From Mycolicibacterium phocaicum (lineage in GTDB: Bacteria > Actinomycetota > Actinomycetes > Mycobacteriales > Mycobacteriaceae), in NCBI RefSeq assembly GCF_010731115.1, contig NZ_AP022616.1, forward strand, positions 2,790,001-2,854,000: a stretch of 64,000 nucleotides of DNA, in the 5' to 3' direction. Shown one piece after another: positions 44,497 to 48,199 of this stretch. The first letter of the stretch is position 1. Every line of letters starts with the position of its first letter. A model generated the notes under the pieces. The model had not been told where the DNA came from and searched no databases. It worked only from the letters and a program-made list of their open reading frames with translations. Made by a program: the position numbers and the translations under genes.

Positions 44497-44919
44497 TCAC
44501 GGGCAGGACGAGGCCAGTGTGGGCGAGTCCACGGCAAGCGGGGTGTTGTTGGCCGCTGCCCGGTTGATCGCGTCGCGGCGGGCGTCCTCGAGTGTCGGCC
44601 CGGCGCCGCCGGCGACGACACCGCTCGTGGGGGCGTGCACGTTGACGATGCACAACCGGTCGTTGGTGACCTCATCGCTCGTGCACTGGTCGGCACCGGC
44701 CCGGTTGCAGGCCGCGATCACCGCCACCGAGGCCGCGTGCACGTCAGGACCGGTCGCGGTGAAGCCGACGATGCTGCCGCCCCGGACGCCGGAACCGACC
44801 GCGGCGGCAATGTTGTTCGGCTTCCCGAGCACGCCCGCTGAACCGTCAGCGCACGCCGGTACCGCAGCGATGGCGCTCGCGCCGAGCACCGCCGCCAGGG
44901 CAGCCACCACACGCCTCAT
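44497..44919 (-). CDS. Secreted DUF4189-like protein, 140 aa
   Basis: 140 aa. Signal peptide ~1-24 (MRRVVAALAAVLGASAIAAV, cleavage after ACA). The mature part has repeated DUF4189-like features: ASVAVIAACNRAGADQCTS, DRLCIVNVHAPTSGVV and GPTLEDARRDAINRAAAN, with paired cysteines. It is probably a small periplasmic or secreted protein. Function unknown. It lies about 250 bp upstream of the 87-aa secreted protein on the same strand, with a separate promoter likely for each. Confidence 0.75.
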   Translation of the reverse strand: MRRVVAALAAVLGASAIAAVPACADGSAGVLGKPNNIAAAVGSGVRGGSIVGFTATGPDVHAASVAVIAACNRAGADQCTSDEVTNDRLCIVNVHAPTSGVVAGGAGPTLEDARRDAINRAAANNTPLAVDSPTLASSCP

Positions 44920-45017
44920 GAATACGCCGGTTCCTCTCGTCCGTAATTGGCGAGATTACCCGGGGTTCACAGCTTTCGCTCAGCGAAGCAAGCAAGGCCA
45001 CCCGCGTGAAAAACGTA

Positions 45018-45051
45018 AAAACCCCTGACTTCCAAGGAAGTCAAGGGTTTT
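45018..45051 (-). terminator. Rho-independent terminator, originally downstream of the pks16-like gene
   Basis: On the minus strand AAAACCCTTGACTTCC (45051-45036) pairs with GGAAGTCAGGGGTTTT (45033-45018), with one mismatch and a 2-base loop, then TACGTTTTTC. Removing the IS110 element places this hairpin about 15 bp after the stop codon of the ligase gene at 46562, so it was that gene's terminator before the insertion. Confidence 0.85.
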
Positions 45052-45089
45052 CACATCTTCGCGGACCTAATGGGTGGTGATCGGCGAGC

Positions 45090-45290
45090 CTAGAACGGAT
45101 AGTGATTCGTCGGGGAGACGCTGATCTCCGAGCCGCTGGTCGGTGAGCACTCCGTGCGCCTGGAACGATGGTCGATTTCTAGGGTTAGATCGTGCCCCGA
45201 CCGGTTTGGTGAGGTCATCTATAGCGCTCATGGGATGTCGTGCCGCTCGAGCACTGATCCATTAGGTCGCCGCCGGTGTCCTTCGGCTCG
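45090..45290 (+). ncRNA. Putative bridge RNA of the IS110 element
   Basis: IS110 elements encode a structured guide RNA in the left end. Here TGGGATGTC (45231-45239) is identical to the right terminus plus core base (46554-46562), fitting the left donor guide. CCATTAGG (45259-45266) is complementary to CCTAATGG at the left terminus (45066-45073), fitting the right donor guide. ACCGGTT (45200-45206) is complementary to AACCGGT immediately after the right core (46564-46570), fitting the right target guide. RNA ends are approximate. Confidence 0.6.
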
Positions 45291-45328
45291 AACGGTTTCA
45301 TCCGCAGCGAGCTGAAGGAGGCGATGAG

Positions 45329-46540
45329 ATGCTCTTCGTCGGAGACGACTGGGCAGAAGACCACCACGACCTGTACCTGATGAACGAGGCCGGTAAGAAG
45401 CTGGCGGCACAACGGTTTCCCGAAGGGCTAGCCGGTATGCGGCTGCTGCATGACTTGATCGCCACCCACGCTCAGGAGCCGGCTCAGGTGATCATCGGCA
45501 TCGAGACCGACCGCGGTCTGTGGGTCGATGCGCTGACCGGCGCCGGCTATCAGGTGTATGCGGTCAATCCGTTGGCGGTGGCCCGCTACCGGGAGCGCCA
45601 CGCGGTCTCAGGTGCCAAATCCGATGCAGCCGACGCCAAACTGTTGGCCGATCTGGTGCGTACAGATCGGCACAACCACCGACTGATTGCCGGTGACACT
45701 CCCGATGCCGAGGCGATCAAGGTGCTGGCACGGGCGCATCAGAATCTGATCTGGACCCGCAACCGGCACACCAACGCCCTGCGCTCGGCGCTACGGGAGT
45801 ACTACCCCGCGGCGTTAGCGGCCTTCGCTGATCTTGCCGATCGCGACGCGCTAGCGCTCCTGGGACGCGCGGCCGATCCACGACAGGCGGCCAGCTTGAG
45901 CCTGGCGAAGATCCGGTCGGCACTCAAAGCGGCTGGCCGCCAACGCAATATCGACACCCGAGCAATCGAGATTCAAGCCGCGCTACGGTCTGAACAGCTC
46001 GCCGCACCCGCTGCGGTCACGGCTGCGTTTGCCGCGACCACGCGGGCCACAGTGGGCATCATTGTCGAACTGAACCGTCAGATCGACGACCTCGAAACAG
46101 AACTGACCGCGCATTTTGAGACGCACCCGGACGCCGACATCTACCGCTCCCTGCCAGGACTTGGTGTCATCCTCGGCGCCCGGGTGCTCGGTGAGTTCGG
46201 GGACGACCCGAACCGCTACACCACCGCCAAGTGTCGCAAAAACTACGCCGGAACCTCGCCATTGACCATCGCATCAGGCCGCAAACGCGCAGTCCTGGCC
46301 CGCCACATCCGCAACCGACGGCTCTATGACGCAGTCGACCAATGGGCCTTCTGCGCGCTGACCCGCAGTCCCGGCGCCCGACTGTTCTACGACCAACGCC
46401 GCGCAGCCGGTGACCTCCATCACCAAGCCCTACGCGCCCTGGGCAACCGGCTCGTCGGCATCCTGCACGGCTGTCTTAACCACCGCTCCCACTACGACGA
46501 ACACAGAGCCTGGGCTCACCGCCAACCCGCCGCAGCTTGA
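45329..46540 (+). CDS. IS110-family transposase (DEDD + Ser-type)
   Basis: 403 aa from ATG 45329, with GGAGG upstream. N-terminal RuvC-like DEDD domain: FVGDDWAEDHHDLYL, IIGIETDRGLWV and SGAKSDAADAKLLADLV. A coiled region follows, then the C-terminal Transposase_20 domain with YRSLPGLGVILGARVLGEFGD and YAGTSPLTIASGRKRAVLARH, where the conserved Ser is located. The gene appears complete, so the element may be active. It runs convergent to the ligase gene whose stop codon abuts the element. Confidence 0.95.
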   Translation: MLFVGDDWAEDHHDLYLMNEAGKKLAAQRFPEGLAGMRLLHDLIATHAQEPAQVIIGIETDRGLWVDALTGAGYQVYAVNPLAVARYRERHAVSGAKSDAADAKLLADLVRTDRHNHRLIAGDTPDAEAIKVLARAHQNLIWTRNRHTNALRSALREYYPAALAAFADLADRDALALLGRAADPRQAASLSLAKIRSALKAAGRQRNIDTRAIEIQAALRSEQLAAPAAVTAAFAATTRATVGIIVELNRQIDDLETELTAHFETHPDADIYRSLPGLGVILGARVLGEFGDDPNRYTTAKCRKNYAGTSPLTIASGRKRAVLARHIRNRRLYDAVDQWAFCALTRSPGARLFYDQRRAAGDLHHQALRALGNRLVGILHGCLNHRSHYDEHRAWAHRQPAAA

Positions 46541-46561
46541 CAAGCTACGCACCTGGGATGT

Positions 46562-48199
46562 CTAACCGGTGACGAGTTCCACCGAGTTGGCGCGACGGAG
46601 CTTGCCGGACGGGGTCTTGGGGATGGTGCCGGGGCCCAGCACGACGACGTTGCGCGGCCGCACGTCGACCTCGGTCACGACCTCGTGCGCCACCTGGTGC
46701 TCGATCCGGCGCACTTCCACCGGGTCCTGCCAGGCGTTGGATTCGACTGCGACAGCGAACGTCTCGCGCGAATGACCGGCGTCGAGGCGCACCGCCACGG
46801 CGCAGCCCGGGCGCACGCCCTCGACACGGCCCGCGGCCCGCTCGATGTCGGTCGGGTAGATATTGCGGCCCGCCATGATGATGACGTCCTTCACGCGGCC
46901 ACACACCACGACGTTCTGCTCCTCGGTGATGTACCCGAGGTCACCGGTGTCGTACCAACCGTTCTCGTCCTGCGTCGGCAGGAAGCCGGCCATGGTGATG
47001 TAGCCGGGGGTCACCGATTCGCCGCGCAGCTGGATGACGCCGACACCGCGCTCGGGCAGGACGTTGCCGTCCTCGTCGACGACGCGGGCCTCGAGGTCGC
47101 GCAGCAGCGGGCCCAGCGAGGCCAGGCGACGCGTGTTGCCCTTCGAGGCGGGCACGGCACGCCGCAGCGCGGCCAACAGATCGGCGTCGACCTCGTCGAC
47201 GACCAGGCCGGCGTTGCACGGCGAGAACGACACGGCAAGGCAGGTCTCGGCCATACCGTAGGCGGGCAGGATGGCCGAGGCCTTCAGCCCGAACGGCTTA
47301 CCGGCGTCGATCAGGTCTTCGACGTCCGCGGGGTCGACGGGCTCGGCGCCGGACAGCGCGAACCGCAGGGTGGAGAGGTCGTATTCGCCCGGCTTGGCCT
47401 GGCGGCGCAGCCGCTTGGCGAACAGCGCGTAGGCGAAGTTCGGGGCCGCCGTCATGGTGCCCTTGTACTTGTCGATGAGCTTGGCCCACAGCAGGGTGTC
47501 GCGCAGGAAGTCCATCGGCGTGACCTTGACCAGCTCGGCGCCGAAGTACATCGGGATGGTGAGGAAGCCGACCATGCCCATGTCGTGGAAGCACGGCAAC
47601 CAACTGACCATGACGTCCTTGTCGACGTCGTACTCGGCGCCGATGAACATGGCCTCGGCGTTGGAGTAGATGTTGCGGTGCGTGATCTGCACGGCCTTGG
47701 GCGATCCGGTCGAACCCGAGGTCAGCTGCATCAACGCGAGGTCGTCCTCGCCGGTCTCGACGGGGTCGATGGGCTCGGCGGCGAGCAGGTCGCCGACCTT
47801 GAGGACCTGCAGGCCCTTCTCCTCCAGCACGGGGATGGCGACCAGGAACGGCTCGGAGACGACGACGGCCTTGGCCTCGATCATGCCGATGACGTTCATG
47901 GTGTCTTCGGCCCAGACGGCCAGGTCGGTACGGGGCGTCGGCTGGTGCAGCATGGTGAGGCTGCCGCCGCGCATCCAGATGCCCTGCACGGTCGGGGCGA
48001 TCTCGACCGGGAAACCGGCCAGCACACCGATCTTGTCGCCGGGGCCGATGCCCGCGGCCGCCAAGCCGCCGGCGACGCGGCGCGCCCGCTCGTGGACCTC
48101 ACCCCAGGTGTGGCGCACTGGCTCGTGCGGCTCACCGGTGACCATGCCCCGCTGCGATGTACGAGCGTTGTAGTACATCTTGTCGGTAAATCGGCTCAC
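46562..48199 (-). CDS. pks16: Pks16-like fatty-acid AMP ligase / acyl-CoA ligase (Rv1013-like)
   Basis: 545 aa. ANL-superfamily adenylating enzyme despite the name: P-loop [21 protein letters not shown] (~152-172), [16 protein letters not shown] as in fatty-acyl-AMP ligases, [22 protein letters not shown], and C-terminal Lys in KTPSGKLRR. The FAAL-like HDMG segment hints at acyl-AMP transfer to a carrier protein and not only to CoA. It is an ispE-side neighbour as in M. tuberculosis. The stop TAG overlaps the right edge of the IS110 insertion; the protein itself is unbroken. Confidence 0.9.

Follow-up and report, generated by a model that had tools for sequence, protein, structure and literature searches.

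Predicted bridge RNA guides of an IS110-family element in Mycolicibacterium phocaicum and its relatives mostly spell CTAA or CTAG, words found chiefly at gene ends and between genes

The window analyzed here, a stretch of 64,000 nucleotides of the Mycolicibacterium phocaicum genome, carries an intact insertion sequence of the IS110 family at positions 45067–46563 (plus strand; 1497 bp counting both CT cores). The left CT core (45067–45068) continues into the element as AATGGG, and the right CT core (46562–46563) is preceded by the right terminus TGGGATGT. The recombinase gene (45329–46540, plus strand) follows a non-coding stretch of 262 bp, and its stop codon lies 21 bp from the right core, which means that the element lacks the long downstream non-coding region that is a trait of the IS1111 group. 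The right core coincides with the end of an open reading frame on the minus strand (46562–48199) encoding a fadD-like acyl-CoA/AMP ligase (PF00501, NF005850), which is the target locus of this copy. A scan of positions 44900–46700 for sigma-70-type promoters found none, with 0.3 expected.

The recombinase (403 amino acids) is of the DEDD/serine type. It matches PF01548 (DEDD_Tnp_IS110; 120.4 bits, cut-off 29), PF02371 (Transposase_20; 38.8 bits, cut-off 21.3), and the NCBIfam model NF033542, "IS110 family RNA-guided transposase" (180.1 bits, cut-off 140). The model of the TIGR-Tas endonuclease, NF052498, scored 21.3 bits and thus remained below its cut-off of 100, and a search of the PDB by sequence gave no match at an E-value of 0.01. 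The candidate catalytic residues D7, E59, D99, D102, and S316-G317 are at least 97% conserved among 93 proteins; they were equated with D11, E60, D102, D105, and S241 of IS621 on the basis of motif and spacing rather than structure. Rfam places the actinobacterial small RNA Ms_AS-4 (105.9 bits) on the minus strand at 46150–46231, opposite the recombinase gene, where it is possibly an antisense regulator of the transposase.

The ends of the element were set with the help of its relatives. Among 77 distinct sequences of at least 66% identity, 71 could be bounded and 6 could not; the bounded ones start with CTAATGG and end in a right terminus resembling TGGGATGTCT, a complete conservation that is partly due to construction, because these end motifs themselves served to find the ends. 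The window copy alone does not distinguish a CT core from a CTAA core, since CTAA stands at both of its ends (45067–45070 and 46562–46565). In the relatives, the base to the left of CT and the bases to its right vary from site to site, which identifies the core as CT. The base-exact boundaries proposed in an initial annotation of this DNA are therefore correct with a CT core, but they could not be derived from the window copy without relatives. The genome harbors a single copy. Six further places in it (L002–L007) are weak matches belonging to a different IS110-family element (best protein identity 47%). Across the genus, 75 of 396 genomes, including that of M. phocaicum, contain a match at an E-value of 1e-80 or better. 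The copy in one other genome (G206) encodes a recombinase with 99.5% amino acid identity and occupies another insertion site, at which the right target again starts with AACC after the core.

The left end of the element contains four guide segments, all on the plus strand. The left target guide (LTG; 45154–45161), GTGCGC plus the core CT, and the right target guide (RTG; 45183–45188), GGTTAG, which pairs with CTAACC, lie on the 5' and the 3' side of one target-binding internal loop. The left donor guide (LDG; 45231–45239), TGGGATGTC, equals the right terminus plus the C of the core (46554–46562) exactly, and the right donor guide (RDG; 45259–45265), CCATTAG, is complementary to the left-end CTAATGG. 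The adjacent base, 45266, is of the handshake type and pairs with C45066, the target base to the left of the core.

The target guides were assigned by covariation with the flanks. The 5' ends of 47 distinct sequences were aligned, and the 71 sites were reduced to 58, with 41 distinct RNAs, by requiring flanks of 8 bases or more on either side and removing duplicates; L139–L142, four copies of one element with a seemingly shared right flank, were excluded. A scan of every column against every flank position revealed two clean diagonals, one linking right target positions +1 to +4 with 45186 to 45183 and one linking left target positions −1 to −6 with 45159 to 45154. The RTG pairs with its own flank at 3.71 of 4 positions, compared to 1.88 with swapped flanks, and the LTG at 4.43 of 6 compared to 2.14 (58 sites each); neither value was reached in any of 5000 permutations. 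The result was the same (0 of 5000 permutations) when each distinct guide pair was represented by a single site (n = 38). Pairing of the RTG is complete in 45 sites, with 3 of 4 positions paired in 9 sites and 2 in 4 sites. The LTG pairs at all six positions in 12 sites, at five in 17, at four in 18, and at three or fewer in 11; the poorest fits are L022 (RTG 2 of 4, LTG 1 of 6) and L124 (LTG 1 of 6). Base 45266 pairs with left target position −1 in all 58 sites and changes together with it (0 of 5000 permutations), the partner being C in 50 sites (35 RNAs), A in 6 (4 RNAs), and G in 2 (2 RNAs). The donor guide columns are conserved among the 47 distinct 5' ends (mean 0.93 for 45231–45239 and 0.98 for 45259–45266), and so are the element ends that they match. 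In the window copy, the right target CTAACC is fully paired by GGTTAG, and the left target GCGGAC forms three Watson–Crick pairs, two wobbles, and one mismatch with GTGCGC. The identical guides of the G206 copy meet the left target ACGCGC with four Watson–Crick pairs and two wobbles (wobbles counted by hand in both copies). With guides that covary with the flanks and donor guides that match the ends, the element belongs to the IS110 group of the bridge RNA type.

Much of the initial annotation is borne out by these results. It had described an IS110 element with a left-end bridge RNA, guides in the order LTG-RTG-LDG-RDG that make the target readable, and a CT core, all of which is supported. 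The strings that it quoted occur where it had placed them, including CGTGCGCCT at 45153, and its left donor and left target guides stand as given. Its right donor guide, CCATTAGG (45259–45266), is indeed the reverse complement of 45066–45073, but it is one base too long, as it consists of the RDG and the handshake base G45266, which pairs with the flanking base C45066.

The structured core of the predicted bridge RNA spans 45130–45289 (plus strand) in a consensus fold of 37 of 39 candidate sequences; the near-duplicates L135 and L037 were left out, and the consensus folding did not use 8 of the 47 distinct 5' ends. The fold comprises 40 pairs, 13 of them with changes on both sides, and 98.2% of the cells are paired; on each of five measures, none of 500 shuffles reached the observed value. 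The target-binding stem is formed by a 5' arm (45135–45150) and a 3' arm (45192–45206), with 14 pairs in helix 2, of which 7 changed on both sides, and the donor-binding stem-loop (45213–45281) by helices 4 to 7. Two internal loops are present, as the initial annotation had anticipated. In one of them the LTG lies opposite the RTG; the donor segments are located in the second hairpin, where LDG positions 45233–45236 are predicted to pair with an AUCC that overlaps the first two bases of the RDG. When the window sequence is folded alone, the target loop is partly closed (5 of 8 LTG and 3 of 6 RTG bases paired), and the open loop is visible only in the alignment fold. The initial annotation had named guide segments buried in stems as evidence against its reading; the single fold would count against the finding in this respect because the LTG and RTG are partly paired, whereas the alignment fold does not. 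Folding stability is not unusual for 45100–45300 (z −0.09) and reaches a z of −2.11 for 45069–45328. At gathering thresholds, Rfam returned no bridge RNA family; its matches were Ms_AS-4 and two tRNAs.

The window copy occupies the stop codon of the fadD-like gene, a TAG (46562–46564) composed of the core CT and the first base of the right target. Judged by eye, the gene is one codon longer here, as 18 of 27 compared sequences have CTA (a TAG stop) 3 bases further to the right, where the window has ACC. A terminator-like hairpin on the minus strand (45022–45038; consensus match only, with 1 found and 1.2 expected in shuffles) would be near the end of fadD in the empty site; the element now puts 1.5 kb between the two, and transcripts of fadD may extend across the insertion sequence in antisense orientation. 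The neighboring gene is present in 26 of 41 genomes searched, including that of M. phocaicum (best other 89% identical). Conservation does not extend past the stop, so that none of the 41 genomes yielded a base-exact empty site.

For 65 sites, the position relative to genes was determined from gene calls made by a simple codon model whose training set was this same DNA; L176–L179, whose right flank looks shared, were kept and classed as intergenic. Fifteen sites are exactly on a stop codon, 1 is within 3 bases of one, 41 are intergenic, and 8 are inside genes. The background, 328,268 bases of the same DNA, includes the window and with it the insertion site there, as well as the sequences flanking these loci. 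In it, 83% of random positions are inside genes, compared to 33% of the CTAA/CTAG words, 16% of which are on stops. Where AA or AG follows the core, sites are on stops more often than the background words (15 of 44 vs. 80 of 513, p = 0.003) and inside genes less often (4 of 44 vs. 167 of 513, p = 0.0004), with p-values that treat the sites as independent, while several belong to one element. At 12 of the 15 stop sites a gene of a Pfam family ends; L155, L159, and L070 have none. The 15 sites involve 16 genes, 8 per strand, among them those for FadD, an alpha/beta hydrolase, COX1, a bacterial DNA topoisomerase, DoxX, and a sigma factor. Topoisomerase and COX1 genes of this kind are essential in mycobacteria.

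The guides themselves are biased: CTAA or CTAG is specified by 28 of the 41 distinct guide pairs, although only 1.7% of CTs are followed by AA or AG. Four guides have 2, 6, 3, and 6 perfect sites, compared to 240, 142, 320, and 68 when their words are reversed. The word of nine bases that the window guide specifies occurs at six places in its own genome, five exactly on stops (two of them with Pfam support), one intergenic, and none inside a gene; the occupied site lacks the word because of its left target mismatches. CTAATGG stands at the expected distance in 27 of 40 distant relatives (55–64% identity), and a GGGRTNTCT right end is present in 34. The base after CT is G in 14, T in 9, A in 8, and C in 3 of these, so an A after the core is not mechanically required. 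Ten distant relatives share a right flank starting CT-GCCGC, a common target (L091, L094, L101, L103–L105, L107, L112, L113, and L115; hosts include Nocardioides, Ornithinimicrobium, and Micromonospora). At L136, L137, L138, and L037, four copies of a single relative in G278, the right flank contains the small palindrome AGCGAC-N3-GTCGCT, a REP-like repeat target.

Taken as a whole, the locus is very probably explained by an IS110 element with a left-end bridge RNA whose guides, in this group, mostly spell CTAA or CTAG, so that landing is mostly harmless. The element would encode the recombinase, and its left end would yield the bridge RNA. The LTG and RTG in the 5' internal loop would pair with both genomic target strands around the CT core, the LDG and RDG in the 3' loop with the ends of the element in a presumed circular form, and base 45266 would contact the target in the manner of a handshake. 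The element would then be inserted by recombination at CT. A gene on the minus strand would keep its TAG, made up of the core CT and the target A, as at fadD, and for a gene on the plus strand the left end CTAATGG would supply a TAA in the same register; translation would presumably end at these retained or supplied stops. Landing is expected to be mostly harmless because two thirds of the CTAA/CTAG words in these genomes are on stops or intergenic, and most insertions appear to spare genes because the words spelled by the guides occur mainly between genes or at their ends. This harmlessness would explain why such guides prevail.

The target scheme of the initial annotation in its exact form, with ACCGGTT (45200–45206) as the right target guide, is almost certainly wrong. 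The string is the reverse complement of 46564–46570 and thus an exact 7-base complement to the right flank of the window copy. As RTG it is misassigned by about 18 bases. When the flanks of the other copies are compared with it, as the annotation itself had proposed, pairing with the own flank is barely above that with swapped flanks (2.86 vs. 2.72 of 7, reached by 92 of 5000 permutations; 2.79 vs. 2.68 with the window copy removed, reached by 242 of 5000). Its columns are conserved (mean 0.86) among elements with differing flanks, and in the fold of the window sequence as well as in that of the alignment it is paired within the basal stem, which displays compensatory changes. Covariation therefore refutes the scheme, and the fit to the right flank is coincidental. 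It is also unlikely that the element has decayed or become immobile and that its bridge RNA is a fossil. The single copy in the genome and the imperfect pairing at the left target would suit a relic, but the 403-amino-acid frame is intact, the catalytic residues are conserved, the ends and donor guides are perfect, and the nearly identical recombinase in G206 is encoded by a copy with identical target guides at another location. The intact frame, the conserved residues, and the fitting guides argue for a functional element.

A more serious alternative, which we consider possible but not the better bet, attributes the preference for stops and intergenic regions to survivorship alone, with arbitrary guides and the loss of harmful insertions. 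It is favored by the 11 unoccupied perfect sites of three other guides, of which 6 are inside genes, 1 is on a stop, and 4 are intergenic, and by the rarity of occupied CTAA/CTAG sites inside genes relative to the background (4/44 vs. 167/513). It does not account for the bias of the guides themselves (28/41 against 1.7% of CTs), which may reflect inheritance within the clade, nor for the words, which are inside genes in only 33% of cases to begin with, compared to 83% of random positions. One-mismatch words of the window guide that keep CTA, sought in 30 loci of 310 places, were found three times, twice inside genes and once on a stop. Because 6 of the 11 perfect and 2 of these 3 one-mismatch sites are inside genes, purifying selection appears to clear genes as well. 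For the window element, much is owed to the guide itself; selection must contribute more in the case of the other guides, and guide choice and selection are separated only partly.

It is about an even question whether this mycobacterial and related bridge RNA lineage has settled on stop-codon words, with a left-end stop in register, so that even essential genes remain intact. If this were true, it would amount to RNA-programmed landing at gene ends, and it suggests how a programmable mobile element can evolve guides that spare its host. At the sequence level, the natural insertions alone confirm the bridge RNA rules, including the one-base handshake, in an actinobacterial clade. For annotation, targets become predictable: with four guide words tried, a genome search gave only 2 to 6 perfect matches per word.

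The element is of a known type with an unusual target logic. A search of the literature by titles and the beginnings of abstracts yielded no report of stop-codon targeting by IS110 or other insertion sequences, and the main texts of PMC11208160, PMC11187229, and PMC8141618 do not use the term "stop codon". IS900 of Mycobacterium avium subsp. paratuberculosis, for which a target-site motif has been sought, also belongs to the IS110 family of mycobacteria but is a different element (PMC8141618). As in ISEc21, the upstream non-coding region would be the source of an RNA matching the target, and in both the order of the target matches is reversed relative to IS1111, as is typical of IS110 (PMC11187229). 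For ISEc21, a more abundant RNA of 70–100 nt with target matches is reported (PMC11187229); for the present element, the structured core of the RNA is predicted from the consensus fold. The closest parallels are with IS621, which shares the left-end bridge RNA, the target loop preceding the donor loop, the CT core, the pairing of LTG and LDG with the bottom strand and of RTG and RDG with the top strand, and the DEDD and serine residues (PMC11208160; PMC11208158). Base 45266, next to the core complement of the RDG, resembles the base of the handshake guide contact reported for IS621 (PMC11208158). The element differs from IS621 in host clade and sequence, and its group targets stop codons and intergenic CTAA/CTAG words, unlike IS621, whose described targets are REP elements (PMC11208160).
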